From positions 1 to 59,533 of the forward strand of contig JALGXW010000022.1 of assembly GCA_029821875.1 (NCBI GenBank): a stretch of DNA of 59,533 nt, in the 5' to 3' direction. This DNA is from Candidatus Hebobacterum abditum (GTDB lineage: Bacteria; Armatimonadota; Hebobacteria; Hebobacterales; Hebobacteraceae). Shown piece after piece: positions 4,563-31,268 of this stretch (position 1 is the first letter of the stretch; each line of letters starts with the position of its first letter). A program made the translations under genes and the position numbers. Under the pieces are notes generated by a model, which saw only the letters and a program-made list of their open reading frames with translations, was not told the origin of the DNA and did not search any database.

Positions 4563-4961
4563 ATGCTACACTCAATCGACCCAAAATCCGCAGTGCCGAT
4601 CTACCTGCAGATAACGGAGCAGCTTCGGCGGAGCGTCGCCGCCGGGCTGCTGCTGCCGGGCGACCAGTTGCCGTCGGTGCGCGAGCTGGCGGCCCGGCTG
4701 CTCGTCAATCCCAACACGGTGGCCAAGGTCTACCGGGATCTCGAAAGAGACGGGCTGCTCGAGACACGCCGCGGGCAGGGAACATTCATCGCGGCCGACG
4801 CCGCAGCCATGGCCGAGGGGGAGCGCCGGCGCCTCCTGACTGACGAACTCCGAGCAGTGGCCCGCGATGTCCACGCCTTCGGCCTCGACGATGAATCGGC
4901 GCTCGATCTGTTCCGCCGCGTCCTGAAAGACGAGAAGCCTGGCCGAAAGGACCGCCGATGA
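4563..4961 (+). CDS. GntR family transcriptional regulator, YtrA subfamily
   Basis: A 132-residue DNA-binding repressor. The winged helix-turn-helix occupies about residues 10-78 (PIYLQITEQLRRSVAAG, then LPSVRELAARLLVNPNTV). The C-terminal part is a short helical tail of about 50 residues instead of a large ligand-binding domain, which defines the YtrA type. Such regulators commonly control an adjacent ABC transporter, and here the gene overlaps the ATPase start by 4 bp (ATGA). No clear Shine-Dalgarno element precedes the ATG; the leader is only about 24 nt and is occupied by the operator. Confidence 0.9.
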   Translation: MLHSIDPKSAVPIYLQITEQLRRSVAAGLLLPGDQLPSVRELAARLLVNPNTVAKVYRDLERDGLLETRRGQGTFIAADAAAMAEGERRRLLTDELRAVARDVHAFGLDDESALDLFRRVLKDEKPGRKDRR

Positions 4962-5860
4962 CCGAGAACGGCTTCGCCATACAGACCCACTCTCTGACCA
5001 AGCGCTTCGGCCGCCTGACTGCGCTTGATGGTGTGAGCGCGAATGTGCCGACCGGGTCGATCTACGGCCTCATGGGACCCAACGGCGCAGGCAAGACGAC
5101 CTTCGTCCGGGTGATGCTGAACTTGCTGAGCCCTACGCGGGGCTCGGCGACCGTGCTGGGGCACGATGTGGTGCGGGAACCGGTGGCCGTTCGGCGGCGA
5201 ATCGGTCACGTTGCCGCCCTTCAGCCGCTGTGGGAATGGATGAAGGTGCGCGAGTTCACCCACTTCATGGGTGCCTGCTATCCCCAGTGGAATCCGGAGG
5301 CCGTGTCCTCGATACTGTCCCACGTCGGCATCGATCCGGAGATGAAGATCCAGGCGCTCTCGCGAGGGCAGCGCGCCATCGCCTCCCTCGCCGCGGCCAT
5401 AGGGCACGGGCCCGACCTGCTGCTGCTCGACGAGGCCCTGACCGGGTTGGACCCCATGGCGCGGCGCGAGGTGTTGCGCAATGTGATCGACGCCATGCAC
5501 GCCCAAGGCCGCACAGTGCTGATAACGGGCCAGGACATCGCCGACATGGAGCGCATCTGCGATCACGTTGGATTCCTGGTGAAGGGACGACTTGTCCTCG
5601 AATCGACGCTCGACGACCTGAAGGCGAAGGTCAAGCGCGTCCGGGTCGAGCACGAACGAGACGTAGAGATCGAGCTTCCGCAGGGCGCGCTCGAGGCAGC
5701 GCGGACCCCGGGGGAGACGTCGTTCACGACCGCCGACTTCTCGGAATCCCTGTCAGGTTCACTCGCCGGCCCCAACCGTCGGGTCGAGGTGAGGGACATG
5801 AGCCTGGAGGACATCTTCGTGCATCTGGCTCAGGCTGAGTTGCGGCGAGAGGCTGGGTGA
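4958..5860 (+). CDS. ABC transporter ATP-binding protein
   Basis: A 300-residue cytoplasmic ATPase expected to power the two permeases downstream. Walker A is GPNGAGKTT near residue 41. The signature is LSRGQRA instead of the usual LSGGQ. Walker B is LLLLDEALTGLDP, and the H-loop position looks altered (LITGQDIADME). A C-terminal region of about 80 residues after the ATPase core is common in ABC-2 exporters. It is translationally coupled to gntR and to the first permease (TGATG junction). Confidence 0.92.
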   Translation: MTENGFAIQTHSLTKRFGRLTALDGVSANVPTGSIYGLMGPNGAGKTTFVRVMLNLLSPTRGSATVLGHDVVREPVAVRRRIGHVAALQPLWEWMKVREFTHFMGACYPQWNPEAVSSILSHVGIDPEMKIQALSRGQRAIASLAAAIGHGPDLLLLDEALTGLDPMARREVLRNVIDAMHAQGRTVLITGQDIADMERICDHVGFLVKGRLVLESTLDDLKAKVKRVRVEHERDVEIELPQGALEAARTPGETSFTTADFSESLSGSLAGPNRRVEVRDMSLEDIFVHLAQAELRREAG

Positions 5861-7890: not shown

Positions 7891-7903
7891 GGGGGACGAG
7901 CAG

Positions 7904-9994
7904 ATGAGAGCCATCTTCATCAAGGAGCTTCGCCAGGGCCGCCCGCTGCTCGTGTTCTCTCTGCTGACCGGGCTGCTGATCCCAGTTCTCTACGCGGTGC
8001 TGCTGCGAGCCAATCCCTTCTACAGGGCTCAGCGGGAGATAATCGACGGCACCTTTCACCACCTCTGCCTCGTCGTGCCGCTCGTCCTCGCCTTCTTCGC
8101 CGGCTGCGGCCTCTTTGCGGGCGAGGTCGACTGGGGCACGGCCCCAGTGCTCTTCGGGCTGCCCGTGTCCCGGCGGCGAATCTGGGCGGCCAAGGTGCTC
8201 GCCGGTCTGGCGCTGACGGCCGTTGGGTCTCTGATAGCGCTGGCACTCGTCAGGTTGTTCCTGCCCAGCGTCTTCCGTGCGGCACCGTTCTCGGCCTATC
8301 TCCCAGATGTCGCCCTGTGGACGGCCTTCGCGTTTGCCGTCTCTGTGTTCTGCTCCACCATCACGCGTCACGCGAACGCGGCCCTCGCTCTGGCGGCAAT
8401 TGTCGCCGGGGCCCTCGCAACGGGCGCGATTGCCCTCTGGTACTATCTCGACGCGCCCCTGCTCGGTTACACTGAGCCGCTCGACATCGCCCTCTGGTGC
8501 TTCTCGGCGGTGCCCGCTCTCCTGCTGGCCTCAGCCCTCGTGGTCACACGTGGCGAGCTGTTCCAATCCCGGCGCATCTGGGCGATCGCCTTCCCGACGT
8601 TGCTGATCACCATCGGGCTGACCGTGCTGCTCGTGAGCGGCGCGGCCCGGTGGCTCACCCGCTACGACCGCTCCCACGTGGAGGACGTTTGGGTGCTTCG
8701 CGCGCAGGGCCGCTTCGTCGAAGTGATCACGCTGGCCGACCCCATTCCCTGGGTGAGGGAGTTCCGCGAGGGCTGGATGCCGCGCCCGAAGTGGCGATGG
8801 GGGGGTGTCGAACACATCCATCGAGCCAACTACGGCGCCATCCTCGATCTCGACACCGGCAAGGAAGTGCTGGTGCATCGCACGGATTCGCACGACAGCC
8901 CGAGCTTCCGTGCCGCGCTATCCCCCGACGGCCGGCTTGCAGCCGTCATCGCTAGGCCGTCCGGGCTGACGTGGGGCGCGCGCTCCCGCTATCGGCATCT
9001 GGAGAGAGAGTGGACCCTGGAGGTGTGGGATCTGCAGAGCGGCAAACGCCTCTACTCCGGCGTGCCCGAAGCGATGGCCAGTCGGCCCTTCGATGTCCAT
9101 CGCGTGGCGTGGTCGCCGAGCGCAGAGCACCTCGCTCTGCCGGTGAGAGATCACCCCACTACGCTGTACGTCGTTCACCCCGACGGCTCCGGCCTGACGA
9201 GGCTGAGCCCCAGGTTCGAGTCGTGGAAATGGGCTGCCGACGACGAACTGATCTATGGCCTTGACGGAGATGCCGTCCTCTATCGGGCCTACCCAGACGA
9301 CCGCGCCGCAGAGGTCGTGTCGCGGCTTGCGGACGAACTCCACTCCGACCCGGATGCATTGCGCTGGATGTGGGAGCCATCGCCAGATGGGCGCTGGCTG
9401 CTGATGCACGAGGAATTCCACGTTGAACCGGCAGACGTAGACGGTGTGGGAGAGCGCCGGATTGCGCGCTCTCTCTGGGCGGTGCCGACAGATGGGTCGG
9501 AGGCCCTCGAGCTCTGGACGAGCGGACCTGAACACGGGGCGGACATGAGGTTCGTTCGGTCCTCGGCATGGACGGCAGATGAGGAGGCGCTCTACCTGGC
9601 CGTGTACGACAGCGAGGAGAAGAGCAGCAGCGTCCTGCGCTGGACGGCGGGTGAACCATCTCCCGTGACCGTCGTCTCTGGCCTTGCCGGGTACTTGGAT
9701 CTCCTCACCAGGCCAGACTCCGGTGACATCGTCATCTGGCGGTGGCGGCGCGGCGGCCCGGGCAAGCCCTGGTACCAGGCAACCGAAGGGGCCGTGCTTG
9801 TGCTGGACGGCGAGGGTCAAGTCCGAGAGTTGGCTTCGCGCGGGGTGACTGCCGAACTGGCTACGCTCTACCGCCCGGAAGGCTTCGACACCAAGGGCCG
9901 GCTCCTCCTGAGTCCTCGCGACGATAGAGCGGAGAAACAGGGAATCCATGCTCTCGATCTCGATACTGGCGAGGTGAGACAGATCTACCCATAG
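7904..9994 (+). CDS. ABC-2 type permease fused to a TolB/WD40-like beta-propeller (copy 2)
   Basis: A 696-residue paralogue of the preceding protein with the same architecture. The N-terminus MRAIFIKELRQGRPLL and the segment VSRRRIWAAKVLAGLAL closely match copy 1, and both end in TGEV(T/R)-(R/Q)IYP. About seven hydrophobic helices precede a long propeller region with LSPDGRLAAVI, WSPSAEHLALP and PSPDGRWLLMH. It starts 13 bp after copy 1 behind a GGGGG ribosome-binding site. With one ATPase and two permeases, the likely complex is a heterodimeric exporter carrying two extracytoplasmic propellers. A long antisense open frame here is a codon-bias shadow. Confidence 0.85.
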   Translation: MRAIFIKELRQGRPLLVFSLLTGLLIPVLYAVLLRANPFYRAQREIIDGTFHHLCLVVPLVLAFFAGCGLFAGEVDWGTAPVLFGLPVSRRRIWAAKVLAGLALTAVGSLIALALVRLFLPSVFRAAPFSAYLPDVALWTAFAFAVSVFCSTITRHANAALALAAIVAGALATGAIALWYYLDAPLLGYTEPLDIALWCFSAVPALLLASALVVTRGELFQSRRIWAIAFPTLLITIGLTVLLVSGAARWLTRYDRSHVEDVWVLRAQGRFVEVITLADPIPWVREFREGWMPRPKWRWGGVEHIHRANYGAILDLDTGKEVLVHRTDSHDSPSFRAALSPDGRLAAVIARPSGLTWGARSRYRHLEREWTLEVWDLQSGKRLYSGVPEAMASRPFDVHRVAWSPSAEHLALPVRDHPTTLYVVHPDGSGLTRLSPRFESWKWAADDELIYGLDGDAVLYRAYPDDRAAEVVSRLADELHSDPDALRWMWEPSPDGRWLLMHEEFHVEPADVDGVGERRIARSLWAVPTDGSEALELWTSGPEHGADMRFVRSSAWTADEEALYLAVYDSEEKSSSVLRWTAGEPSPVTVVSGLAGYLDLLTRPDSGDIVIWRWRRGGPGKPWYQATEGAVLVLDGEGQVRELASRGVTAELATLYRPEGFDTKGRLLLSPRDDRAEKQGIHALDLDTGEVRQIYP

Positions 9995-17524: not shown

Positions 17525-17690
17525 TGATCGACTCCCAAGAGTCTGGAAATGTCAGGCCGTCCTTCTGTCACGCTCTCGACATGACCTGCTCGGCGAGAGA
17601 CGGCGCGCCCTGGTGGGGCGGGCCGAGGCCTCCGCAGGGGATCGGCCTGTGAAGAGGAAGTGAACGCGAAATCGGAGATTGGAGCCAGAG

Positions 17691-19208
17691 ATGAAGCCAT
17701 CAGGTAGCGACGTCCGCCTAGCAGTGCTTTCGAGCGACGGCAAGCCCGTTCCGGAGGCCGATCTCGCCGACGCGATGGTGCTGGACATGGACTCGATGCC
17801 CGCCTTCGCGCAGACCCCGGAGACGGAAACAGGCACGGTCGCGCTGCCGGCGCCGGACGGCCAGTTCGCAATCTGCCTGCCGCTGAACGTCGCGGGCTTC
17901 GGGCACGTTTACGTCTACGCAGATAACGGCGGAGCGGGCTACTCGGCTGACGAGGTCGCGGACACGACGTTGAGCTTCTCCTTCGAGGCCGCGGAGAGCC
18001 GCGTAGCGGCCGTCGCACGGGCCGAGAATGGGTTCCGGAAGGCCGGCACCAGGCCCTCGTCCGACTACTCGCAGCGCATGGCCCGGGCGCAGGAACTGCT
18101 GGGGGACGCGCGGTCTAAGCGATCAGACGAAGCGGCCTGCGCGAAGCTGGCGATGGCATCCCTCGCCGAGTCATTGCACGCGGGGGAGATGCTCGTGGTC
18201 GAGCACGCTCGTTCACGGATTGCGGCCTCGCCAAAGCGCGAGGGATTTCTTTTCGGCGCCAACGGTTTCCGCTATGTGGACCTCGGGGAGGAGTACGCTG
18301 AGCTGTTCGGGGGCGTGCTGAACTTCGTGACCCTGCCCTTCTACCGGTCCCGAACGGAAGTCGAGGAGGGGAAGCGCGACTTCTCCCGGGTCGAGAAGAT
18401 TCTGGAATGGACGAGGCGGGACGGGCTGGAGGTGAAGGGCCATCCTCTCGTGTGGTTCCACCGGGCGGGGATTCCCGAGTGGCTGGAGGGCCGAAGCTAC
18501 GAGGAGTTCGAGGCCACCCATCGCGACTACGTGCTCGACGCGGTCGGCCGCTTCCGCGACCGGGTCAATATATGGGACATCATCAACGAAGCGCACGACT
18601 GGGCGAACGATCTCGACTACACCCAGGAGCAGCTCACCGAGATGACTCGCCTCGCGGCCGATGTGACGCGCGAGGCGGATCCAGAGGCCGCCCGTGTGGT
18701 GAACTCCTGTTGGACGTGGAGCGAGTATGTGGCCATCGGACGCAACTACTCCCGCATGATCGGCCGACCGGCGAGAAGCGTGCTCCAGTACATCAGGGAC
18801 CTGATCGGGGCGGGCGTGGAGTTCGAGGCGATAGGCCTTCAGATGTACTACCCCACGCGCGATCTCTTCGAGATTGACCGCCAGCTCGAGCGCTTCTCCC
18901 AGTTCGGGAAGGCGGTTCACATCACCGAGCTGGGTGTCAGCTCCTCCGTGAAGCCGGTGAAGTACGACCCGATCGTCGACGTTCACATCAAGCGCTACTG
19001 GCACGGCCGCCCCTGGAACGAGTCCGACCAGGCGGACTGGATCGAGGGCTACTACACGCTCTGCTATTCGAAGCCTACGGTCGAGGCGGCAACCTGGTGG
19101 GACTTCTGCGATCCCAGCTTCATCCCGCATGGGGGCTTCGTCGATGAGAAGCTGCGACCGAAAGAGGGCTATCACCGGCTGAAGGGGCTGATCGAGAGAT
19201 GGGCCTGA
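17691..19208 (+). CDS. Glycoside hydrolase family 10 endo-beta-1,4-xylanase-like protein
   Basis: A 505-residue predicted xylan hydrolase. The GH10 barrel spans about residues 185-505. GHPLVWFHRAGIPEWL carries the conserved His-Pro-Leu-Val-Trp block, WDIINEAHDW supplies the acid/base Glu (about residue 300), HITELGVSS the nucleophile Glu (about 413), and WWDFCD closes the barrel. The usual ITELD is ITELG here. About 180 residues precede the barrel and look like a carbohydrate-binding beta domain plus a helical linker. No signal peptide is visible, so it probably acts on imported oligosaccharides. The ATG at 17691 has GGAG 8 nt upstream. Confidence 0.85.
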   Translation: MKPSGSDVRLAVLSSDGKPVPEADLADAMVLDMDSMPAFAQTPETETGTVALPAPDGQFAICLPLNVAGFGHVYVYADNGGAGYSADEVADTTLSFSFEAAESRVAAVARAENGFRKAGTRPSSDYSQRMARAQELLGDARSKRSDEAACAKLAMASLAESLHAGEMLVVEHARSRIAASPKREGFLFGANGFRYVDLGEEYAELFGGVLNFVTLPFYRSRTEVEEGKRDFSRVEKILEWTRRDGLEVKGHPLVWFHRAGIPEWLEGRSYEEFEATHRDYVLDAVGRFRDRVNIWDIINEAHDWANDLDYTQEQLTEMTRLAADVTREADPEAARVVNSCWTWSEYVAIGRNYSRMIGRPARSVLQYIRDLIGAGVEFEAIGLQMYYPTRDLFEIDRQLERFSQFGKAVHITELGVSSSVKPVKYDPIVDVHIKRYWHGRPWNESDQADWIEGYYTLCYSKPTVEAATWWDFCDPSFIPHGGFVDEKLRPKEGYHRLKGLIERWA

Positions 19209-19228: not shown

Positions 19229-19252
19229 GAGCTGTCCGCGGCCGGTCAGCTC
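19229..19252. terminator. Short stem-loop at convergent gene ends
   Basis: GAGCTG (19229-19234) pairs with CAGCTC (19247-19252) around a 12-nt loop that contains CCGCGG. It overlaps the stop codon of the zinc-ribbon gene on the other strand. A weak candidate. Confidence 0.35.
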
Positions 19253-19884
19253 GTCAGGAGTCGAAAGAGAGCCACCAGCACTAGCGCGGCGAGCGCCGAG
19301 GAGCAGCCCGCCCGCAGGCCTGCCCGCCTCGGCTCCGCGCCTCTGGACATGCGACTGCGCTCGATGGCGTGACGGATCTCCGGCGGCACTTCCTCCAGCG
19401 AGCGGTACTCCTTGTCGCCGACCCGGACGACCGTCTGCTCGGTGAACGTGTGGGAGGCCGAGGCAAGGCCCCCGGCGGACACGTCTCCGCCCGAACTTCC
19501 GAGCGTGAGCTCGGGGCTTGTCTCGCCGTGCGCCAGCCGCCGCATCGCCTCCCGCTTGTCAACGCCGGCGCGCTGCGCCTCGACCTCCACGATGCGGGTG
19601 ACAGCGGGAAGTAGATTCGTCGCCTCATCCGGGTAGCGCCGCTTGAGCGTTCGCAGCAGCGCCTCGTCTACGTCCTCTGTCGGCCCGGCCGATGCGAGAG
19701 CCTCGCGGAGGATGGGACCAATCTCGACGGTGCATGTCTTCGTGTCGCCGGTCCCGCCTTCGACCGCGTCGGACATGAGGTCTGTACGACAGGTCGGACA
19801 GAGAAGCCCACCCGACTTGGTATGCTCGCGCCCGCATCTGGGGCATTGAGCACTCCCTCCACTGCTTCTTCCTGCGATGCTCAT
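19246..19884 (-). CDS. Zinc-ribbon protein with C-terminal membrane anchor
   Basis: A 212-residue protein of unknown function. The N-terminus has a zinc ribbon, CPRC near residue 14 and CPTC near residue 30. The middle is charged and helical (about 60-110), with no recognised domain. A single hydrophobic helix near the C-terminus (SSALAALVLVALFRLL) predicts a tail anchor in the inner membrane. The segment VRVGDKEYRSLEEVPPEIR resembles short regulatory domains seen in other zinc-ribbon membrane proteins, but no function follows. It starts 32 bp after the DUF6785-type gene on the same strand, so the two are probably one transcript. The Shine-Dalgarno element is weak. Confidence 0.65.
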   Translation of the reverse strand: MSIAGRSSGGSAQCPRCGREHTKSGGLLCPTCRTDLMSDAVEGGTGDTKTCTVEIGPILREALASAGPTEDVDEALLRTLKRRYPDEATNLLPAVTRIVEVEAQRAGVDKREAMRRLAHGETSPELTLGSSGGDVSAGGLASASHTFTEQTVVRVGDKEYRSLEEVPPEIRHAIERSRMSRGAEPRRAGLRAGCSSALAALVLVALFRLLTS

Positions 19885-19916
19885 GATCGGTCTTTCCGTC
19901 TCGGGTACCAGCAGGA

Positions 19917-21878
19917 CTACACGTCTACCCCGGCGCCTCGCAAGATGGAGATGACGAGGACCCATCCGCCCTGGCTGACGAAGTCGCCGACGATGAGACC
20001 GATCGCCAGCGGGAAGGTGCGGCGGTAGAGCGGGAGGCCTCCGTAGCGGATCACCAGACTCTTGAGCACCCAGCCCAGGAAGAAGGGCTGGGCGAACCAG
20101 TGCATCCCCCAGCAGTTGGCCGCCAGATATCCGATAGGGTGGAAGGGCCACCACCAGAAGCGGAGCCTCAGAACTCCAAGAACCAGGGTCACAACTGCGC
20201 CTGCGCCCATGGCGATGGTGCCATAGAGATCACGCTTGGACGGAGTCGTTATGGCTTCGAGGATGCGGCCTCCACTCGACCGCAGCTGGCTACTGAGCCA
20301 GCCGCTCGACGCGGCACGGGTGTCCAGGAATCCATAGTGATACATGCCTGCGAGGACGACGTAGATCCCCATCACGAGCGCGATGACGAAGCCGACCATC
20401 ATGGCGCGAAGCAGTCGCCGAGATGAGATGCCGGCGGCATCGGCGATCTTAAAGGATTCGAGGCTGTTGCCCGTGCAGACCTCGAATGACTCGCCGAAGC
20501 CGGGGAAGTAGCTCCATCGAGTCGAGAACAGAGCGACGATCTCCCGCGGGCGGAAGATCGCGCTGCCGAAAGGCACGACAATCATGCCATTGACCGTCAA
20601 CGGGAAGGGGACGAACCCAAGCCCGGTCTCGGCCCGCAATCGCGCCCAGACGACATAGTGCACGATGATGAGGCCGCTGATTGCGGCACCCACCGCGACC
20701 CTCGTGCCCGACGCCCAGTAGAAGTAGAGCAGATAGCCGAAGGACAATAGGAAGCCCAACACGATCCACCGATAGGCCACCGGCTCGCCGGCTTCGTCTC
20801 CTTCGGACCGTATGCCGAACGCCAGCCGGGCCGCTCGCGCCAGGTGATGGCGCCCCACCCAGATCGCCCAGACCGCGACGGCCAACACGGCCCCCCCGCC
20901 CTGGTAGGTGGGAGCGGGGAAGGTGCTGTCCCACCACTCCTCGGGCCGATTCGGGGTGGCTCCTGCGGCGATGGCGGCCACCGTCAACCCGACCCTGACC
21001 ACCCAGAAGAACCAGCACGAGAAGGAGAGTTCCTTGGGGATAAGATAGGCGACCGCGATCATCCACGGCGCGAGCCACAGTTCCCACGCACCGAGTCCGG
21101 CCAGGGGGCCGACTCGCTGCCACTGCATCAGAATGACGCCGGTTAGTGGAATGTCCGGGATCGCCGGGAAGAGCCCCGAGAGGCGACTTATGGTCGTCAA
21201 CCCGAACGAGATCAGGAAGCCGATCCAGAACACCCACGTCGCTGGGAGGCGGCCCCTTCCCGACGCCGTCTCGCCCTGCACCATTTCCAGAGGAACCTGG
21301 GCGAGGGGGAAGGCGAGGCGTTCGTGTGAGATCCACTGCCGGCGCAGAAGGAGGATGAGGCAGAGCGTGGCCGTGAAGAGCGCAAGCATGTACGAGCCCC
21401 ATCCAAGTGCAGGCGCTCGCCACTCCGCCCACGGCACGGGCGATCGGCCCTGGAAGTAGGCCTCCACGGCCTCCGAGCTGGTCGGCGAGAACCAGGGCGG
21501 CAGATGCTGGAGGAAGGCCGTCTCCCACTCGGGCATGGCTCGGGCGAGGTACTGATGCGATATGTTGGTGCTGAGCGCCCACACCAAGATGCCGTGGGTG
21601 ACGAGCGGCGCGCCGACGACAATGATCCCATAGAGAGCCAGGAGTTCGCGGCGGCTCAGGCCGCCAGTCCGCGTTCTCTTCCAGAGCGGGTTGAGCGCGG
21701 CAGCGAGAAAGAGGATCACCAGCGGGGCCATGCCCGGGACGCCGGCCCCGAACATGTAGGTGGTGCCGAACAGGATCTCCCCATAGAACGCGGCCGGAGC
21801 GATCAGGGCAACGAGAATCAGCCCGACGACGATGACTCGCCGGCTGATCCCGCCTCCTCCATTGCCGGTGCTCGGCAT
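19917..21878 (-). CDS. Polytopic membrane protein, DUF6785/DUF6784 type (copy 1)
   Basis: A 653-residue inner-membrane protein with a dozen or more hydrophobic helices. The C-terminal signature PFHPIGYLAANCWGMHW, followed by a Trp-rich helix, VIRYGG, YRR and GLIVGDFV, is shared with copy 2 and is typical of a large uncharacterised family distantly like oligopeptide (OPT) transporters; the family name is from memory. In the middle, SHERLAFPLAQVPLEM aligns with SDRERLTFPIIQLPLEL of copy 2. It is co-directional with the FG-GAP and amidohydrolase genes in a carbohydrate locus lacking other sugar transporters. An oligosaccharide or sugar-acid transporter is a reasonable inference. Confidence 0.65.
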   Translation of the reverse strand: MPSTGNGGGGISRRVIVVGLILVALIAPAAFYGEILFGTTYMFGAGVPGMAPLVILFLAAALNPLWKRTRTGGLSRRELLALYGIIVVGAPLVTHGILVWALSTNISHQYLARAMPEWETAFLQHLPPWFSPTSSEAVEAYFQGRSPVPWAEWRAPALGWGSYMLALFTATLCLILLLRRQWISHERLAFPLAQVPLEMVQGETASGRGRLPATWVFWIGFLISFGLTTISRLSGLFPAIPDIPLTGVILMQWQRVGPLAGLGAWELWLAPWMIAVAYLIPKELSFSCWFFWVVRVGLTVAAIAAGATPNRPEEWWDSTFPAPTYQGGGAVLAVAVWAIWVGRHHLARAARLAFGIRSEGDEAGEPVAYRWIVLGFLLSFGYLLYFYWASGTRVAVGAAISGLIIVHYVVWARLRAETGLGFVPFPLTVNGMIVVPFGSAIFRPREIVALFSTRWSYFPGFGESFEVCTGNSLESFKIADAAGISSRRLLRAMMVGFVIALVMGIYVVLAGMYHYGFLDTRAASSGWLSSQLRSSGGRILEAITTPSKRDLYGTIAMGAGAVVTLVLGVLRLRFWWWPFHPIGYLAANCWGMHWFAQPFFLGWVLKSLVIRYGGLPLYRRTFPLAIGLIVGDFVSQGGWVLVISILRGAGVDV

Positions 21879-22001
21879 GGCGGGTAGCGCCCTCCCTTAT
21901 GCTGGTAGCCGAACGGCCTCGCCCGTCTCAGCGACAGTTCCCGAAGTCCTGCCAGACCTCTCGACCGCACGGCCCCGCGCTGTTCGTGCCTCTAGTTCGC
22001 T

Positions 22002-22021
22002 GAAGGCCCGCGAGGGCCTTC
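22002..22021. terminator. GCGA-tetraloop hairpin
   Basis: GAAGGCCC and GGGCCTTC form a perfect 8-bp stem closed by GCGA, a GNRA loop on the plus strand, in the 280-bp gap downstream of the FG-GAP gene. It lacks a U-tract. It may attenuate read-through from the FG-GAP gene into the DUF6785 gene or stabilise the upstream mRNA. Nothing else is evident in this gap. Confidence 0.45.
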
Positions 22022-22158
22022 CAGTGCAGTTGCGGAGTCAAGCCGTCGCGCGAGCAGCACTGAAATGCCTTGCGGCCAGCCCCCAGCGGAAGAGGATGAG
22101 TTGTGGGAGCCCAAGCGGCCGGTGCAGGTTGTCGCCGGGGGCCGGCGCTGGGCGGCGA

Positions 22159-23241
22159 TCAGCTACCCTCGTTGAAGAACACATACAACCCGTCCTTGCC
22201 CGGCGCGACGATGTCGAGCCGGCCCGTGTCCCGCAGGTCAGCGACTGCGAACATGATCCCCAGGCCGGTCCCAACGCGCGCCGGCCCGTAGTCGATAACC
22301 TGCTTGGAAAACGACTCGCCGTTCCACTTGAAGTAGTACATGCCGACGGGATCGAAGGCGCCCGGATCCCTGCCGCAGTGCGCGCGGTATCGCTTGCCCG
22401 TGACCAGCTCGTGCTGCCCATCGCCGTCAATGTCCACCCACTGCAGGTCGTGGTACTGCGAGTTGTACGGATCGATGGGATGCTTCTTCCACGTGCGACG
22501 ACCGGCCGAGTCGCGCTTCTGCTCCCACCAGTCGAGGCCATAGGCGTGGGCCTGCCCGACGATCAGGTCGTTCAGGCCGTCACCGTTGACGTCGGCGACG
22601 ATGACCGGGAGGCTGGCCGAGGCGAGATCGAAGTCCGGATGGAAGACCCACTGACCTCGCCATGGGTCTTCGGGGGCCTCGAGCCATCCCTTCGCAAGTA
22701 CGAGGTCGCCGCGGCCGTCGCCGTTGATGTCGCCGAAACCGAGGCCGTGGCCCTGCTCGTCGGCGTATATTGTGTGGGAGGAGAACTCGCCCGTGCCCCT
22801 TCGGTTCTCGTCCACGATGAGCTTGTAGACGACTAGCGGCCCCATCGGTGTGTTCGGGATGAGCTCCAGCTGTCCGTCCCTGTCAACGTCCCAGGCGCGC
22901 GTGCCCTCGACATTGCCGCACTCGGCGATCACGTGCTCCGGCCACTCTCCGCCCTTGACTCCCGGGTTCTCCCGCCAGCGGAGCGTGTTGCCCCACCAGC
23001 CGCCGGTGACGAAGTCGAGGTAGCCGTCCCCGTTGATATCCATCGGGATGGTCGAGAAGTCATCGAAGTACTCGCCCTCGGCCATCACCTCGCCGATGAA
23101 GTGCTGCTTCCTGAAGTCCGGCCCCTCGTACCAGTAGGCGCCGGAGACGATGTCCGGGAGGCCGTCGTTGTTGACGTCGAAGACGCCGGCGGATTCGTAC
23201 CGTTCGTCGGCGATGAGTCTCTTCTGGAATCTCAGGGGCAT
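22159..23241 (-). CDS. FG-GAP/VCBS repeat protein
   Basis: A 360-residue predicted seven-bladed beta-propeller. At least five calcium-binding loops of the D-x-(N/D)-x-D-G type are visible: DVNNDGLPD, DINGDGYLD, DINGDGRGD, DVNGDGLND and DIDGDGQHE. Similar proteins accompany polysaccharide enzymes in Planctomycetes-like genomes and may bind glycans. No signal peptide is present at the chosen ATG, which has GGGAGAG upstream, so a cytoplasmic location is predicted, unusual for this family. It sits between the amidohydrolase and DUF6785 genes on the same strand. Confidence 0.8.
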   Translation of the reverse strand: MPLRFQKRLIADERYESAGVFDVNNDGLPDIVSGAYWYEGPDFRKQHFIGEVMAEGEYFDDFSTIPMDINGDGYLDFVTGGWWGNTLRWRENPGVKGGEWPEHVIAECGNVEGTRAWDVDRDGQLELIPNTPMGPLVVYKLIVDENRRGTGEFSSHTIYADEQGHGLGFGDINGDGRGDLVLAKGWLEAPEDPWRGQWVFHPDFDLASASLPVIVADVNGDGLNDLIVGQAHAYGLDWWEQKRDSAGRRTWKKHPIDPYNSQYHDLQWVDIDGDGQHELVTGKRYRAHCGRDPGAFDPVGMYYFKWNGESFSKQVIDYGPARVGTGLGIMFAVADLRDTGRLDIVAPGKDGLYVFFNEGS

Positions 23242-23329
23242 GTAGCTCTCCCATTGAGTGTTGGCTGGCTAGGTGGTGCGCCGCGCAACGCGGTGGCGCT
23301 GGTTGAGCGCAAGTCGGGTGACGGCGGTG

Positions 23330-24622
23330 TCACGCTAGTCCGAGGAATTCCTCGCCGTTGTGGAGCATGACCGCGGCCGCCACCTTTTCCGCCGTCTCCG
23401 GTGAGAAGTACCCGGCCTCGATCTTCTGCTCGAGCACCCGTGCGATGCCGATTCGCGCCTGGAGTGCGTATCCCACATCACACCAGGGTCGTCCTGTGTC
23501 GGCCCCGTAGCCGAAGATCTTGTTGAACGGCACGCCGTCCAGCCACTCCGACAGGCCGCGCTCGCTCTCGGCGGGGTTCATCGCCCAGGCCCAGCAGAGG
23601 TCGGGGTAGACGTTCGGGTAGTTCTTCGCGATGGCGCCGAGCTCGGACGTCCACGGCCACGAGGCGTGCATGATGTCGAACCGCACCCGGCGGTACTTCT
23701 CGAAGATCGGGATCAGGTAAGACGCCTTCGTGGAGTTCAGCGATCCCCAGTTCCCGGCGAGGTAGCCAGTGTGTATCTGCACCGGGATGTCCTCGTCGTC
23801 GGCCCGCTCCATCAGGCGGTGAAAGAGGTAGTCAGAGAGGGGACGGGCCTCCCTCGCGCTGACGCCGCCGCCGTCTTGCTGGATGGGTTCGTGAACGGTG
23901 TCCCGACTTACGATCTCGTTGAAGGCCGCCTCGGCCTCATGCCTAGTGGGATCGCCAACGGCGAGATCGCGGAAGTAGGCCATCGCGATCTTGATCGCCG
24001 CCAGCGGCACGGCCTCCCTGAACCGGCTGATGCTGGCGTTCATCGCCGCGACGAACCTGTCCAGCGAGGTGATCGAAGCGTCGGCGGCGCGCTGCAGCGC
24101 GTCTATCGGACCTCTGTCCATCGTCGCCCACAGGGAGTCCATCCGCCAAGTGAAGCGGTAGTACTTGGGATAGGCATCATCCCCGTACTCGGCCGGGGCG
24201 TTGCCATACGTATGACCGTCGTTGAGGACCCAGCGCGTGTTCGCCTTCTCCTTCACGAAGTAGTCATAGACCTCGGCGGCCGACTTCCCGGCGATGGAGG
24301 CCTGAAGCGCGTCGGTTATCTCCGCGAAGTTCTCGGGCGAGTACTCCAGGTCGAACAGCTCCCTGCAGCCGAGCGTCACCGCGCGCCCGTAGCCGGTGGT
24401 CCTGATCTTGGGCCAGAGCGCGGCAACAGAGCTCGCGTCGTCCAACTCCTCGGGCGGCCGCGCTCCGGCCGCCGTCACGAGGTCGGACTCGGCGTAACCG
24501 CCCAGCAGGCTCCGGTGGTCGTAGTTCTCCCTTTCCCTGTCGAACTGCCTGAAGTTGAAGTGATGGTTGTGGTGGCAGAACAGCGGATGGCTCATCACGA
24601 ACTCACGAATCGAACTTGCCAC
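23330..24622 (-). CDS. Amidohydrolase superfamily protein (uronate isomerase/amidohydrolase-2 like)
   Basis: A 430-residue TIM-barrel hydrolase or isomerase. The N-terminus has a metal-binding HHNHHF (about residues 17-22), the central barrel has QIHTGY, and FDIMHASWPW supplies a further His, as in amidohydrolase-2 enzymes. GADTGRPWCDVG holds the late Asp. Members act on sugar acids, lactones or aromatic acids, so it may process uronate products of the lyases nearby. The start is GTG 24622 with GAGGAG 7 nt before it. It heads a minus-strand run with the FG-GAP and DUF6785 genes. Confidence 0.78.
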   Translation of the reverse strand: MASSIREFVMSHPLFCHHNHHFNFRQFDRERENYDHRSLLGGYAESDLVTAAGARPPEELDDASSVAALWPKIRTTGYGRAVTLGCRELFDLEYSPENFAEITDALQASIAGKSAAEVYDYFVKEKANTRWVLNDGHTYGNAPAEYGDDAYPKYYRFTWRMDSLWATMDRGPIDALQRAADASITSLDRFVAAMNASISRFREAVPLAAIKIAMAYFRDLAVGDPTRHEAEAAFNEIVSRDTVHEPIQQDGGGVSAREARPLSDYLFHRLMERADDEDIPVQIHTGYLAGNWGSLNSTKASYLIPIFEKYRRVRFDIMHASWPWTSELGAIAKNYPNVYPDLCWAWAMNPAESERGLSEWLDGVPFNKIFGYGADTGRPWCDVGYALQARIGIARVLEQKIEAGYFSPETAEKVAAAVMLHNGEEFLGLA

Positions 24623-24852
24623 TGGGTGCTCCTCTTCCAGTCGACCTCTGGCCTCTCGGCCGGCCTACTCCGTCTTCTACTCGATGAGTGCAGTGGACGG
24701 ATCGCCGATGGCCAGGGCCGGGTCGACCTGCGCCCCGGCTCGGTTGACTCTTCGACTGCGCTGCGGGCCTTCCTTTGGCCGCCGCCCGCCGAGGGGAGGA
24801 CCGACACCGGCCCTGACGGAATCACTGAGAAGTGAGCGAGAAGGGGCACGGC

Positions 24853-26349
24853 ATGAGACCGGTCAGCCGTCGCGAATTCGTGAAGATAGCGCTCGCCGCG
24901 CCCGCAGGGCTGAGCGCGCTCGGAAGGGAAGTCGCCGTGGCAGAAGAGCGACCCCCGCGCAAGCGGCCGAACCTGCTGTTCGTCTTTCCAGACCAGATGC
25001 GCCGTCACGCGATGGGGTTCATGAACCAGGACCCGGCCAGCACTCCGGCGCTGGACCGCCTCGCATCCGAGGGCCGGGTGCTCGACCACGCGATCAGCAA
25101 CACGCCGATATGCAGCCCCTTCCGGGCTATGCTGATGACCGGCAAGTGGCCGCACAGCACCGGCGTGGTCATCAACTGCTACGCCCGGCCCGATGGCTGG
25201 GAGGAGACCGAAAGGGAGAAGAACTGCTACCTCCAGCGCTCCGAACGCTGCCTCTCCGATGTGCTCCACGACGCTGGCTACGCCACCGGCCACATCGGCA
25301 AGTGGCATCTCACCAAGCCCAAGAAGCCGTACGTCGATCCCACCGACTATGGCGGCTACATCTGGGACTCCTACCCGCCGCCCGAGGACCGGCACAGCTT
25401 CGACTTCTGGTACGGGTATGGCTGCCACGGCAACCACCTCCATCCGCATTACTGGACCGGCGACGCGCCAAAGGACCAGCCGATACAGGTCGACCAGTGG
25501 GCGCCCGAGCACGAGGCGGACCTTGCCATAGAGTACATCAGGAACATCGCTGGCAAGTATCGCGACGCGGACAAGCCCTTCGCCCTCTTCGTGTCACACC
25601 ATCCGCCGCACAACCCCTACAACGCGGTCCCGGACAAGTACCTCGATGAATACCGAGACAGACCTCTCGAAGAGCTGCTCAGCCGCGGGAACGTGGACCT
25701 GTCGCTCGACGAAGGGCCAGCGGCACACGCCAAGCGCGCAGTCAGAGGCCACTTCGCCATGGTGACGGGCGTAGACGAGCAGCTCGGCAGGATTCTCCGC
25801 TGCCTCGAGGAGCAGGGGCTCCGCGAGAACACGATCGTTGTCTTCACAGCCGACCACGGCGAGATGATGGGCAGCCACAACCGGATGGCGAAGTCAGTGT
25901 GGTACGAGGAATCGATCGGCATACCGTTCATCATCCGATGGCCCGGCAGGATCGCGCCCGGCCGCGATGATCTTCTGCTCAGCGTGCCCGACTACATGCC
26001 GACGCTGCTCGGGCTGATGGGGCTTGCCGGCGCGGTCCCAAGTGGGGTCGAGGGAACGGACTACTCGGCGGCGCTCCTGGGGAAGAGCGGCGCGCGGCCG
26101 ACTTCCGCTCCCTACCTGAGCATGCGGCATGACGGCGACGAATACGGGGCGCGCGGCCTGCGCACACATCGCCAGACGTTTGTCGTTCGGCGGGCGAAGC
26201 AGGGTGAGGAGACCATCCTCTACGACAACGAGAAGGACCCATACCAGCTCGAGAACGTGGCTGACCGGAACGCGCCGCTCGTGTCGGAGCTGCGCAGGGA
26301 GCTCAACGGCTGGCTCCGGCGCGGCGGCGACCCGTGGGCGGGAATGTGA
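24853..26349 (+). CDS. Formylglycine-dependent sulfatase with Tat-type signal
   Basis: A 498-residue type I sulfatase, probably desulfating a polysaccharide or sulfated sugar. The signature CSPFR begins at Cys87 (CxPxR), the residue to be oxidised to formylglycine, followed by TGKWPHSTGV. Metal and active-site segments follow: PDQMRRH, GKWHLTK, HHPPHNPY and TADHGEMMGSHNRMAK. The N-terminus SRREFVKIALAAPAG matches a twin-arginine signal (SRREF), so it is likely exported folded. ATG 24853 has AAGGGG 8 nt upstream; a GTG at 24832 is less likely. No formylglycine-generating enzyme is in the window. Its end overlaps the downstream membrane gene by 4 bp. Confidence 0.9.
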   Translation: MRPVSRREFVKIALAAPAGLSALGREVAVAEERPPRKRPNLLFVFPDQMRRHAMGFMNQDPASTPALDRLASEGRVLDHAISNTPICSPFRAMLMTGKWPHSTGVVINCYARPDGWEETEREKNCYLQRSERCLSDVLHDAGYATGHIGKWHLTKPKKPYVDPTDYGGYIWDSYPPPEDRHSFDFWYGYGCHGNHLHPHYWTGDAPKDQPIQVDQWAPEHEADLAIEYIRNIAGKYRDADKPFALFVSHHPPHNPYNAVPDKYLDEYRDRPLEELLSRGNVDLSLDEGPAAHAKRAVRGHFAMVTGVDEQLGRILRCLEEQGLRENTIVVFTADHGEMMGSHNRMAKSVWYEESIGIPFIIRWPGRIAPGRDDLLLSVPDYMPTLLGLMGLAGAVPSGVEGTDYSAALLGKSGARPTSAPYLSMRHDGDEYGARGLRTHRQTFVVRRAKQGEETILYDNEKDPYQLENVADRNAPLVSELRRELNGWLRRGGDPWAGM

Positions 26350-28307
26350 ACGTGGCGCGGGTGGCAGCTTCAGGAAGACACAGCAGAGTGTGGCGCGGGA
26401 TCGTCGTTGGACTCGTTCTGCTGCCGGTGAATACCCTCTGGGTCTTCTACCTCGAGCAGGTCGGCGGGCACGGCCCCTTCGTGTCCACCATCTCGCTGTT
26501 CTTCAACGTCGTCTTCATCCTCGTCTTCGTGGCTCTCGCCAATGCGGCCGTCCGTCGCCTGAACGCCTCCCTCGCACTCAGCCGAGCCGAGATGATCATT
26601 GTCTACGTGATGCTCACGATCAGCACTTCGATCATGTCCCACGACATGCTCCAGGTCCTCATCTCGATGATGACCACCGGCTACTGGTTTGCCAACCCCC
26701 AGAACCGCTGGGAGCAGATGCTGGACGGTACCACGCCGAGTTGGCTCCTCATCTCCGACCAGGATGTGCTCTATGGCTACTGGAACGGCGCCACAACTCT
26801 GTACCAAGACGTTGTGCTCTCCGCCTGGCTCGGCCCGATGCTGTGGTGGCTCGGCTTCATGGTGGTCCTGGTCTTCGTTCTCATCTGCCTTTCGGTCGCC
26901 TTTCGCCCACTGTGGTCAGATCGCGAGCGCCTCACCTTTCCTATCATCCAGCTCCCGCTGGAGCTCACGGACCCGAGGACCACGCTGCTGCGTAATCCCC
27001 TCATGTGGATCGGCTTCGGCATCGGCGCCATCGTCAACCTCATCAACGGGCTCAACTACATCTTCCCGGCCGTCCCCTCCATCCCGCTCTACATAAACCT
27101 CCAGAGCTACATCCACAACGAGCCGTGGACCGGGGCCGGCTGGTTCCCGATGACGTTCAACCCTTCGGTCATCGGCCTGGCGTTCCTGATGCCGCTGGAC
27201 CTGCTGTTCTCGTGCACGGTCTTCTACCTCTACTGGAAGGTGATGTTCGTGATCGCCAAGGCCGCCGGCGTCAGCGAAGGCTACGGCTGGGGCGGGCCGA
27301 GCCCGGCGATCTTCCCGTACTCGAACGAGCAGATGTTCGGGGCCTTCATCGCCATCGCACTCAGCTCGATCCTCATCGGCCGCCAGTACTTCAGGCAGGT
27401 TTGGCGTCGGATCATCGCCCTCCCGTCTGAGGTCGATGACTCGAACGAAGGGCTCAAGTTCCGGACTGCGCTGGCCGGGTCCGTCGTCGGCGTCGCGCTC
27501 CTGATCGCGTTTGGCATTCGCGGCGGGCTCAGCCCCTACCTCGCCATCGCCTTCTTCATCATCTACTTCCTGCTCGCCGTCGCCGTCGCTCGCGTCCGCG
27601 CCGAGTTCGGCTCGCCCGTTCACGACTTCCACTTCGCCGGGCCGGACTACACCCTCAACTACGTCCTCGGGAGCGCCAACCTCAGCGATCGCGACCTCGG
27701 CATGTTCCACCAGCTCTATTGGTTCAACCGCGCCTACCGCGGCCATCCCGTGGCCAACACCATCGAGGGAGTGCAGATGAGCGCCCGCGCCCGCTTCCAC
27801 GGCCGCGCCGTCGTGGTCGCCATCCTCCTTGCCACGGTAGCGACGGTGATCGCCGGGTTCTGGGGGTGGCTCCACTACGCGTACAAGCTCGGCGCTACCT
27901 CTGCCTGGGGCTATGGAGCGGACTGGTTCGGGGAGGAAGCCTACAATCGGCTCCAGTCCTGGATCGAGAACCCCGAGCCGGCCAACATCACCGCGCCCTT
28001 CGCCATGGCGGGCGGGTTCGCCATATCGCTGATGCTCGCGGCGGCCCGCACTCGCTTCGTCGGCTGGCCGCTGCATCCGGTGGCATACGCGCTCTCGGCG
28101 AGCTGGTCGATCAACTGGGTCTGGATGCCCATGTTCATCGCCTGGATGGTCAAGGGGCTCGTCCTGCGCTACGGCGGGCTGCGGTTCTACCGGCGCGTGC
28201 TGCCCTTCTTCTACGGGCTCATCCTCGGAGAGTCGATGCTCGGCTGCACCTGGCCGATCATCGGGCTCATCTTCCACGTGCCGAGCTACAACTTCTTCGG
28301 CTCCTGA
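26346..28307 (+). CDS. Polytopic membrane protein, DUF6785/DUF6784 type (copy 2)
   Basis: A 653-residue membrane protein, the same length as copy 1, with the shared signature WPLHPVAYALSASWSINW, then a Trp-rich helix, VLRYGG, FYRR and GLILGES. It starts with GTG inside the sulfatase stop (GTGA overlap), so the two proteins are made in a coupled way. A desulfating enzyme coupled to a multi-helix membrane protein suggests import of the desulfated product. The substrate and mechanism are unknown. Identity with copy 1 is low outside the C-terminal block, so they probably handle different substrates. Confidence 0.65.
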   Translation: MNVARVAASGRHSRVWRGIVVGLVLLPVNTLWVFYLEQVGGHGPFVSTISLFFNVVFILVFVALANAAVRRLNASLALSRAEMIIVYVMLTISTSIMSHDMLQVLISMMTTGYWFANPQNRWEQMLDGTTPSWLLISDQDVLYGYWNGATTLYQDVVLSAWLGPMLWWLGFMVVLVFVLICLSVAFRPLWSDRERLTFPIIQLPLELTDPRTTLLRNPLMWIGFGIGAIVNLINGLNYIFPAVPSIPLYINLQSYIHNEPWTGAGWFPMTFNPSVIGLAFLMPLDLLFSCTVFYLYWKVMFVIAKAAGVSEGYGWGGPSPAIFPYSNEQMFGAFIAIALSSILIGRQYFRQVWRRIIALPSEVDDSNEGLKFRTALAGSVVGVALLIAFGIRGGLSPYLAIAFFIIYFLLAVAVARVRAEFGSPVHDFHFAGPDYTLNYVLGSANLSDRDLGMFHQLYWFNRAYRGHPVANTIEGVQMSARARFHGRAVVVAILLATVATVIAGFWGWLHYAYKLGATSAWGYGADWFGEEAYNRLQSWIENPEPANITAPFAMAGGFAISLMLAAARTRFVGWPLHPVAYALSASWSINWVWMPMFIAWMVKGLVLRYGGLRFYRRVLPFFYGLILGESMLGCTWPIIGLIFHVPSYNFFGS

Positions 28308-28323: not shown

Positions 28324-29262
28324 TCAGTTGCCGGAGACGTCGTCCACACCCGCGAACATCCGCCGCAGCCGCTCGACGTCTGCCTCCGGCAGAGGCGGCC
28401 GGCGGAGCGATTCCGCGTTCGCCTTCAGGTGTTCCACCTTGCCGGTCCCGGAAAGCACGACGTGCACGCCGGGCTCGTAGCGGCAGAAGCGATAGGCGGC
28501 ATCCTGCACGCTCGTTGCCCCACCTTCGCGGATGAGGAAGTCGAGAGCCGTCTCGTCTCCGACCAACTTGGGATCGACGCGGCCGCGGTCTCGCAGGTCG
28601 GCGAGCACCTCCGCCAGCGCCGTGCCGTCGCTCAAGGCTCTTCTCACCGCGAACATGATGAGCACGCCAATGCTCTTCTCCTGCGTCGCGGCGAGCACGC
28701 GCTCTCGCGCCGACTGGTTCAGGATATTGTGGCCGACCATGATGACCTCCCAGCAGTCATCCCGAACCGCTCGGCTCAGCATCTCATGGCCGGGGTCCGA
28801 GCTGAAGACCTCGGTGACGCCGATGGACCGAATCTTACCCTCGTCGCGAAGCCGCATCAGCTCTGGCACCAGTTCTTCGACGGCGCGGTCATAGTGCTGA
28901 GCGGAGAGCCCGTGCAGGTGGTACACGTCAACGTAGTCAGTGCCGAGCCTGCGGAGGCTAGCCTCGAGCGCCGGCGCGACGCCCTCCGCTCGCAGCCCAT
29001 CGTCCCCCCACATCGAGCGTTTGGTCGAGATGACGACGTCTCCGCGCGGCTCACCGCGCAGGCCCCTGCCAAGGATCTCCTCCGTGCCGTACGCCTCGGC
29101 CGTGTCGAAGAAGTTCGCGCCCAAGTCGACGGCCCGCCTCACCACTTCGACCGACTGCTCTTCAGTGTTGCCATAGCTCTGGCCGAGGCGGCTGTGGCCC
29201 CCACAGCCCAATCCCATGACGCTCACTCGGATTCCGCTGCGGCCGAGAGTCGTGTAGTCCAT
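28324..29262 (-). CDS. Aldo/keto reductase
   Basis: A 312-residue NAD(P)H-dependent (beta/alpha)8 oxidoreductase. LGRSGIRVSVMGLGCGG opens the barrel, FFDTAEAYG holds the catalytic Asp-Tyr pair (about residues 52-58), and ISTKRSMWG and DYVDVYHLHG give the Lys and His positions. IRSIGVTEV (usually IGVSN) follows. The C-terminal end is cofactor-binding but less conserved. It likely interconverts a sugar and its oxo-derivative in this catabolic region. It is convergent with the DUF6785 gene (16 bp apart) and follows the heparinase-like gene by 17 bp on the same strand. Confidence 0.88.
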   Translation of the reverse strand: MDYTTLGRSGIRVSVMGLGCGGHSRLGQSYGNTEEQSVEVVRRAVDLGANFFDTAEAYGTEEILGRGLRGEPRGDVVISTKRSMWGDDGLRAEGVAPALEASLRRLGTDYVDVYHLHGLSAQHYDRAVEELVPELMRLRDEGKIRSIGVTEVFSSDPGHEMLSRAVRDDCWEVIMVGHNILNQSARERVLAATQEKSIGVLIMFAVRRALSDGTALAEVLADLRDRGRVDPKLVGDETALDFLIREGGATSVQDAAYRFCRYEPGVHVVLSGTGKVEHLKANAESLRRPPLPEADVERLRRMFAGVDDVSGN

Positions 29263-29279: not shown

Positions 29280-31268
29280 CTACTGCTGGCCCTTCTTCAT
29301 CTCGGGCGGCGCGCTCCCATGTGCCGAGAAGGTGATCTCATCTCGGCCCACGCGCACCCCGGTATCGACACCGTCGAGTTGCTCGACGTTGGGTGGCTCC
29401 TCGCCCGCCGCCAGCGGCACGAGCACCACGAGGAACTCCATCTGCTCTGCCTGGCCGGGCGCGCTGATCCGCAGACACAGCGGATCCTCGACGTTGATCT
29501 TGTCGCCCATCCCCTCCACCACGGACATGCTTGCGCCGGCCGGCGCAAGCACCTTACCGGCCAAGCTTGCCTTCTCGCACGTGATGAGGAAGGTGTCGCC
29601 CTCGGCCTCCACCTTCCCGCCCGGCTGCAGCATGAAGTCGTAGCTCGTAGCCTCGCCCATGTGTGCGAGGTCGCGGACGACAACATAGCCCCACTTTCCC
29701 GTCCCATCGTGCGGCTGCACCAGGGCCAGCTCCCGCACCACCGACTCCGCGCCCTCGTAGCACTTCGTCGCGTCGGAGCGGAACCACACGAGGCCGTCTC
29801 GTTCCTCCGCATCGGTGATCGCGCCGATGCTGTCTGGGTCCTGCCGCTGATCCCTCTCATCGATGACGAGGCAGTTGTGCGACCACGTGCTCGCGTTGAA
29901 GTAGATGATCTCTCTGTTGAAGTATCCCTCGCCTACCTCCCCGTAGCCGTAGTCGCGGAGAAGCCACTCGCCGCCCGCGTTCAGCAGGAAGTTGTTCACA
30001 TCCAGGTGTGAGTGCGACACTGCGACCTTGCCGCTGCGGAGGTGAAGAGTGAGGGCATCCTCTCCCCAGCCGGTCCGCGCTCCGGCGAAGCCGGTCTTCT
30101 TGAAGGCATGCCACAAGGGCTGACCAGACGGCATCTCGGGCCGCACCGAGGGATCGTGCCAGAGCAGGCCCCAACAGGTCGTGTCGATGTCCCGTCTGTC
30201 CGGCAGCGACTCCGCCAACCACTGGGTGAGCGGGTCGTCGTACTGGCCGGCGATTCGGTACATGATCGGCCGTATGGAATGCCAGTCCCGCGCCGGCCCG
30301 TCGCCGAAGTTTGCCACCTGCCAGATCTCCGGCCCGGCCAGGTAGAGGCGGAAGAGCGGCGTGTGGCGGAAGTACTCGGCGGCGTAGAAATCCTCGTTCG
30401 CGTAGGGCCGAACGGCCTCAACGAGCCGCATCAGGGATTCCATCCCATATCCCCAGTAGGGCACACCCTCCTCGTACGCGCCCTCGTCGGGCAGCTCGGC
30501 GATGATATTGCTGCCGCCCCAGATCGCCTTTGCCAGCCAGGTTCCGGCGTCCGGCTCCTCTCCCGCGAGGGCGATCGCCGTGGCCGCCAGCGCCTGGTAG
30601 GCGCACCAGGCGTGGTTCTGCCTCCACTCGTGCTTCCACCAGCCGCGGTCGTTGATCCCCTCGGCCGCCTCATACATGATTCGGCCGCGCTCCCGGAGAA
30701 TCGCACGAAGCCGCTCTCGGTCTTCCTCCGACCACCGCTCGTACAGCCAGTCGTAGGCGATGGAAATCCCGAAGAGCTGATGCGAGGCCGCCAGGTCGGC
30801 GTTCTCGAACACGCCCGCGCCCCACAGGGGATACTCGGCCGGCTTCAGCGCCCACTTCCGCACATGCTGGAAGTACTTCGGGTCCTCGTCTAGCAGGGCG
30901 ACGAGTGCCAGCCCGGGCAGCACATATCCGAAGCGCCGCTGCCACAACATCTCGTCGTTGAGGGTGTTCGGCCGCGTCGGGTCATTGCCCACCTCGGGCG
31001 GCCGGTACTCGGGCGGATCGTCGTCCAGCGATTCCTCTAGAGCCGCCTTGAGTTTCTCCCACTTCTCACCATGCGTCGTTTCGATAGCCTCTCGCAGCTT
31101 CGCCAGACCCTCCTGCTGGAGAAACAGCCGCGGCCTCCCGGCCGCTGCGACTCTCTCGCTCAGCTCTGCGGAACTCATCTGGACCTCACTTGGCTGCCAG
31201 TCGCCGCCCGATGGAGCGGCGACGAGCAGCGCGAGTGCTGCCGCGGCGCTTGCCGCCAGTGCTTTCAT
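29280..31268 (-). CDS. Secreted heparinase II/III-like polysaccharide lyase
   Basis: A 662-residue protein, predicted to cleave uronic-acid-containing polysaccharide by beta-elimination. Residues 1-22 form an export signal (MKALAASAAAALALLVAAPS). The alpha-toroid spans about 40-370, with the catalytic-type NHAWCAYQALAAT near residue 220. The heparinase II/III beta-domain starts near 400 with AVSHSHLDVNNFLLNAGGEW, containing the conserved HxHLDxN. The chain ends in a beta-sandwich. Its first 83 bp overlap the end of the methyltransferase gene in another frame. Partners are the aldo/keto reductase downstream and the sulfatase nearby, consistent with degradation of sulfated uronans. Confidence 0.85.
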   Translation of the reverse strand: MKALAASAAAALALLVAAPSGGDWQPSEVQMSSAELSERVAAAGRPRLFLQQEGLAKLREAIETTHGEKWEKLKAALEESLDDDPPEYRPPEVGNDPTRPNTLNDEMLWQRRFGYVLPGLALVALLDEDPKYFQHVRKWALKPAEYPLWGAGVFENADLAASHQLFGISIAYDWLYERWSEEDRERLRAILRERGRIMYEAAEGINDRGWWKHEWRQNHAWCAYQALAATAIALAGEEPDAGTWLAKAIWGGSNIIAELPDEGAYEEGVPYWGYGMESLMRLVEAVRPYANEDFYAAEYFRHTPLFRLYLAGPEIWQVANFGDGPARDWHSIRPIMYRIAGQYDDPLTQWLAESLPDRRDIDTTCWGLLWHDPSVRPEMPSGQPLWHAFKKTGFAGARTGWGEDALTLHLRSGKVAVSHSHLDVNNFLLNAGGEWLLRDYGYGEVGEGYFNREIIYFNASTWSHNCLVIDERDQRQDPDSIGAITDAEERDGLVWFRSDATKCYEGAESVVRELALVQPHDGTGKWGYVVVRDLAHMGEATSYDFMLQPGGKVEAEGDTFLITCEKASLAGKVLAPAGASMSVVEGMGDKINVEDPLCLRISAPGQAEQMEFLVVLVPLAAGEEPPNVEQLDGVDTGVRVGRDEITFSAHGSAPPEMKKGQQ

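Follow-up and report, generated by a model that had tools for sequence, protein, structure and literature searches.

Candidatus Hebobacterum abditum has 41 full-length copies of the DUF6785 protein family in 4.3 Mb, and one subtype of pseudopilin is found beside them, an unexpected result. Two of these copies, here called A and B, are encoded in the window, the contig of 59,533 nucleotides that was analyzed. The explanation considered best, by a small balance in its favor, is that A and B are uptake transporters that belong to a remote branch of the OPT superfamily, and that B imports the product of a co-translated sulfatase. They would be part of a set of about 41 paralogues acting as secondary transporters in the inner membrane, presumably energized by symport with protons or another ion, and DUF6785/DUF6784 proteins would be a main organic-solute import family of the lineage. 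The tie of DUF6785 genes to sulfated or uronic sugars is loose; their tie to pilus-like proteins is much tighter.

Genes around A and B

The genes of interest are listed in Table 1. Pfam matches bear out a sequence-only reading that had placed a GH10 protein, an amidohydrolase, an FG-GAP protein and a sulfatase around two 653-residue membrane proteins, both of which are full-length DUF6785+DUF6784 proteins. The locus is not one operon, the genes for A, the FG-GAP protein and the amidohydrolase being on one strand and those for the GH10 protein, the sulfatase and B on the other. The aldo/keto reductase and heparinase II/III-like genes lie just beyond the 19246-28307 interval, and the N-terminus of the heparinase-like protein reads as a likely signal peptide. 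A and B had also been taken as the only transporter candidates. This is correct between 19 and 28 kb, but not for the window, where the protein encoded by an MFS gene about 15 kb from the A/B locus is another candidate solute transporter and where ABC-2 export-type genes are also present. Pfam scans of window proteins turned up no SusC/SusD pair.

Table 1. Annotated features of the window, in order of position
Feature	Position	Strand	Basis
MFS transporter (MFS_1/MFS_2)	3044-4441	-	PF07690 E=5.4e-56, PF13347 E=4.9e-11
ABC-2 export-type genes	4958-9994		Pfam scan of window
GH10 (xylanase family) protein	17679-19208	+	PF00331 E=4.2e-26, residues 225-479
Protein A, 653 aa, OPT-like membrane protein, DUF6785+DUF6784	19917-21878	-	Pfam profiles
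FG-GAP repeat protein	22159-23241	-	PF13517 E=1.3e-26
Amidohydro_2 family protein	23330-24622	-	PF04909 E=9.2e-12
Sulfatase, 505 aa	24832-26349	+	PF00884 E=8.2e-48
Protein B, 653 aa from GTG, DUF6785+DUF6784	26346-28307	+	Pfam profiles, AlphaFold2, Foldseek
Aldo/keto reductase	28324-29262	-	PF00248 E=1.6e-38
Heparinase II/III-like protein (Hepar_II_III_C/DUF4962)	29280-31268	-	PF07940 E=4.4e-12, PF16332 E=2.9e-12

The congener G023 keeps A together with the FG-GAP protein (90% identical) and the amidohydrolase (94% identical). The orthologue of A in G103 adjoins a Gfo/Idh-like gene, not the FG-GAP and amidohydrolase genes. Two of the related copies appear damaged, by assembly error or decay: A in G023 is split into two reading frames (L180 49-1919), and B in G103 (L034 10004) has its first 138 residues absent in frame. 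Two other features of the window can be mentioned. An open reading frame at 19246-20154 (minus strand) overlaps the end of A and has no Pfam match; its inner part looks like a small zinc-ribbon protein that has a membrane segment at the C-terminus. At 368-2172 (minus strand) a gene for 3-dehydroquinate synthase II adjoins one for a DeoC/LacD-type aldolase, a pair known from archaeal aromatic biosynthesis.

Family membership and fold

Both proteins exceed the curated Pfam cut-offs for PF20581 (25 bits) and PF20580 (26.4 bits) and match over their full length. The values are E=9.2e-104 (348 bits) and E=3e-28 (98 bits) for A, and E=4e-143 (478 bits) and E=2e-33 (115 bits) for B. A and B are 27% identical over 639 columns. 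The C-terminal block HPxxY...RYGG...YRR...GLI.G that they were said to share is confirmed by an alignment of 66 homologues, in which it is largely near-invariant (H577, P578, R608, G610, G611, G624 and G628 being the near-invariant residues).

A comparison with OPT transporters, suggested in the sequence-only reading, found an OPT-superfamily fold for B. The AlphaFold2 model, built with 66 homologues, has a pLDDT of 92.2 and a pTM of 0.93. Its only significant Foldseek matches in the PDB are 7wst (E 7e-9, probability 1.00, TM 0.66-0.71) and 7wsr (E 2e-8), with TM 0.64-0.71 across the two entries, both of which are barley YS1, an Fe(III)-phytosiderophore transporter; the next match has an E of 0.035. 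The OPT profile PF03169 matches A over residues 171-631, below the cut-off (E=5.3e-5, 22.5 bits against 25.8), and does not match B. In 41 relatives this profile matches single proteins, including some DUF6785 members above the cut-off; for example, its match at 213797-214699 of G103 falls inside a DUF6785 match. Searched by sequence, the PDB gave no credible match to A, to B or to the family profile. As judged from the predicted structure and the profile, kinship of A and B with the OPT superfamily is well supported. Transport is the likely activity of DUF6785 proteins, and there is a high probability that A and B are OPT-like transporters.

B is 97% identical to its homologue in the nearest genome of the collection (L031), labeled Candidatus Hebobacteria, which is a class of Armatimonadota (PMC10290634). 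In its own genome the nearest paralogue of B (L111) is 59% identical and sits between a GatZ/KbaZ-like aldolase gene and a run of corrinoid/CODH-type genes, not among glycan hydrolases; apart from GatZ, these neighbors were named by eye from the sequence. The surroundings of this paralogue are the same in two genera (L111 = C40 2246-13535; L183 = G097:C2).

The sulfatase and its junction with B

The stop codon of the sulfatase gene (TGA, 26347-26349) overlaps the GTG start of B at 26346 in the sequence GTGA (26346-26349, plus strand). The same junction occurs in the congener G023 (L180), at a contig end. Of the claim that B is translationally coupled to the sulfatase, the start/stop overlap stands, in two species, and coupling itself is what the overlap suggests. 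The sulfatase was seen as a neighbor of B only within the genus; none precedes the B orthologue in L034 or L032.

The sulfatase carries a CSPFR formylglycine-type motif, read from the sequence, and has a Tat-like N-terminus (SRREFVK), so the enzyme probably works outside the cytoplasm. B would most likely import a small product of this apparently Tat-exported, co-translated enzyme. That product would probably be a mono- or oligosaccharide that has lost its sulfate, or else a uronate. That the product taken up by B is of sugar type is slightly favored. A, for its part, would import a product linked to the amidohydrolase, FG-GAP and GH10 genes.

Carbohydrate-related neighbors of DUF6785 genes

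An association of DUF6785 homologues with sulfatases, as the window had led one to expect, did not emerge when it was tested genome-wide. Among all 32 sulfatases of the genome, 4 have a DUF6785 gene within 5 kb (2.9 expected, P=0.33) and 7 have one within 10 kb (4.6 expected, P=0.16). As a general rule for DUF6785 the association was rejected. For GH42 the result is marginal, with 4/16 within 5 kb (P=0.05). Pfam tallies were also made, in which DUF6785 neighbors were compared with genes at least 5 positions away and the 25 commonest families listed. Sulfatases are absent among the leading families listed near DUF6785 genes of the same genome, and in the tallies for other Armatimonadota, Poribacteria and Latescibacterota neither sulfatases nor lyases are listed among the leading ones. 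The families listed near DUF6785 do include GH42 (3 in each near set, own genome and other lineages) and, in the own genome, GH4 (2). URO-D family proteins recur beside DUF6785 (L110:6744-7838, L115:11231-12358, L034:8424-9320), yet they are common elsewhere too.

Among partners on the same strand that are separated by less than about 110 bp, enzymes of carbohydrate type are common. These include the window sulfatase, GH39, MR_MLE (4-bp overlap), a GDSL esterase, a GH42 protein (C37:113335), a GH29-like protein read by eye, and a sugar-type dehydrogenase. Other tight partners are HisF-like, DegT or unknown proteins. A carbohydrate partner is missing from many DUF6785 copies, one of which lies by HisF-like genes. 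Orthologues of B are found beside GH9 in L032 and beside GH2 and Gfo/Idh in L033 and L034. Carbohydrate-enzyme partners differ between DUF6785 copies and between species. A role in sulfated glycans is not supported for the family. Different copies probably take different substrates, and therefore no single substrate class can be assigned to DUF6785. For B a sugar-related substrate is reasonable. The function originally proposed, uptake of polysaccharide breakdown products, thus holds up in its transporter half (OPT fold, OPT profile) and is weak in its substrate half, where there is no sulfatase enrichment and some carbohydrate-enzyme partners.

The known substrates of OPT relatives, among them the plant and fungal transporters, are peptides and metal chelates; these relatives are not known to carry sugars. 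A and B could likewise be transporters for peptides, for derivatives of amino acids or for metal chelates, the glycan genes being adjacent by chance in a genome dense in catabolic genes. The fold match to an Fe(III)-phytosiderophore transporter points in this direction, and so do the lack of a general sulfatase enrichment and the presence of three Peptidase_M24 among 118 DUF6785 neighbors in other genomes. It is nevertheless an improbable account of A and B, since B overlaps the sulfatase gene in two species, B orthologues in three other genomes adjoin glycoside hydrolases, and peptidases are not leading among the families listed near DUF6785 genes of the own genome.

A pseudopilin partner

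Clustering of neighbors revealed one pseudopilin family that is almost confined to the surroundings of DUF6785 genes. Its members combine an N-methylation motif with a match to DUF1559, and all five that were scanned pass the cut-offs of PF07963 and PF07596. In the own genome (stretches L109-L141), 25 of the 32 pseudopilins of this subtype have a DUF6785 gene within 5 kb, against an expectation of 2.9 (P=1.5e-20), compared with 0/26 for other pilins; seven of the 32 have no DUF6785 nearby. The pairing is repeated in G023 (10/22), G048 (12/19), G097 (5/7) and single-contig G103 (5/12), with P from 1e-3 to 2e-8, and all of these P values, like that for the own genome, presume independent placement, which duplications violate. 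Because neither A nor B has such a pseudopilin beside it, this strongest partner of DUF6785 in the lineage was missed from the window alone.

The pilin gene is mostly upstream of the DUF6785 gene on the same strand, with a gap of mostly 90-290 bp when the two are adjacent. In paired pilins the N-terminal 72 residues are 89% identical and the remainder 43%. Pilin-bearing copies are no more grouped in the DUF6785 tree than shuffled labels would be (13 changes versus a shuffled mean of 13.4), so the pairing is not one inherited neighborhood; it may have been lost repeatedly or gained repeatedly. Co-divergence of pilin and transporter within pairs was tested and not found (Mantel r=-0.05). The pairing is absent in the other Armatimonadota, Poribacteria and Latescibacterota sampled, and as a family-wide rule it was rejected, being confined to this one lineage among those sampled. 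An AlphaFold2 model of the pseudopilin from four sequences was uninformative (pLDDT 33).

In Rhodopirellula, DUF1559 has been called a solute-binding family (PMC2754498), and pili-like fibres bind dextran in the planctomycetes Planctopirus and Gemmata (PMC5394234). Neither study concerns DUF6785, but together they make a capture role thinkable. A surface-assembled DUF1559-type pseudopilin might capture the substrate and the paired OPT-like DUF6785 protein import it, as a two-part system with many specificities; A and B would then work without a pilin or with a distant one. This is a possible, if somewhat doubtful, alternative. The near exclusivity of the pairing, its repetition in four related genomes, its orientation, its scatter over the tree, the conserved N-terminus with a divergent remainder, and the published binding roles are all consistent with it. 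The missing pilin by A and B, the restriction to one lineage among those sampled, the lack of a divergence correlation, the seven unpaired pilins and the poor pilin model count against it. Pilin-assisted uptake as the general mechanism in the lineage seems rather unlikely. It is likewise unlikely, though conceivable, that DUF6785 proteins and dedicated DUF1559-type pseudopilins form modular capture-and-import pairs for different substrates, resembling SusCD, with sulfatase-coupled B as the glycan-linked member; in the paired pseudopilin the end used for assembly would then be conserved and the outer part divergent.

Copy number, distribution and uptake

The genome of the organism (4.31 Mb, 103 contigs) has 44 DUF6785 matches, of which the 41 are full length. 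This amounts to about 1 per 100 kb, so that two copies in one neighborhood are less striking than they appear. Several DUF6785 genes are clustered on single contigs (C82:52402-56020, which includes a tandem pair; C61:28367-47468; and C44). The same genome has 14 matches for BPD_transp_1 (ABC permease family) and 5 for SBP_bac_1. MFS_1 matches it at 25 places, in some cases as two pieces of a single gene. With about 41 copies, DUF6785 is probably a major nutrient-uptake family, and its expansion beside catabolic genes, in a genome where ABC importers are few, fits uptake by A and B. That A and B share the OPT-like fold but take no part in uptake, acting instead in export, in sensing or as structural membrane components, is very improbable. 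Direction is not readable from sequence and the family has no characterized member, which leaves some room for such roles, but the large paralogous expansion with few ABC importers argues for uptake, and the OPT relatives are importers.

DUF6785 is widespread in Armatimonadota, yet a literature search found no paper naming DUF6785 or DUF6784; neither has a described function. Of the 201 Armatimonadota genomes sampled, 156 have the family, and first-look candidates often number more than 20 per genome and reach 48. A scan with an alignment narrower than that of all own-genome paralogues showed relatives also in records labeled Poribacteria, Latescibacterota, Gemmatimonadota and Hydrogenedentota; none was found in 14 well-known control genomes. 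If DUF6785 is a main OPT-like importer family of these uncultured bacteria, a large gap in predictions of their diet would be filled. For DUF6785 and DUF1559 alike, the pairing with pseudopilins offers a function that can be tested.

Comparison with known systems

The likeness to the OPT superfamily (YS1, PF03169) lies in the overall fold of B and in the profile match along A. B is, however, only 12% identical to YS1, most DUF6785 members fall under the OPT cut-off, and DUF6785 and DUF6784 are separate Pfam families (PF20581 and PF20580), the former with 41 copies in one genome. The pseudopilins of the lineage resemble the DUF1559 (PF07596, SBP_bac_10) pseudopilins of Planctomycetes in matching both PF07963 and PF07596 and in forming a large paralogous set; in Planctopirus limnophila no paralogue group is larger than DUF1559, with its 68 members (PMC10632474). 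They differ in their position beside DUF6785 genes, a pairing not seen in the other lineages sampled. DUF6785 loci differ from SusC/SusD loci in having an OPT-like protein in place of the TonB-dependent receptor, and in that the partners of DUF6785 are not conserved between copies. Both kinds of locus place a transporter beside glycoside hydrolases and a sulfatase, and both have transporters with many paralogues; in the DUF6785 lineage there is also a paired surface-type protein.
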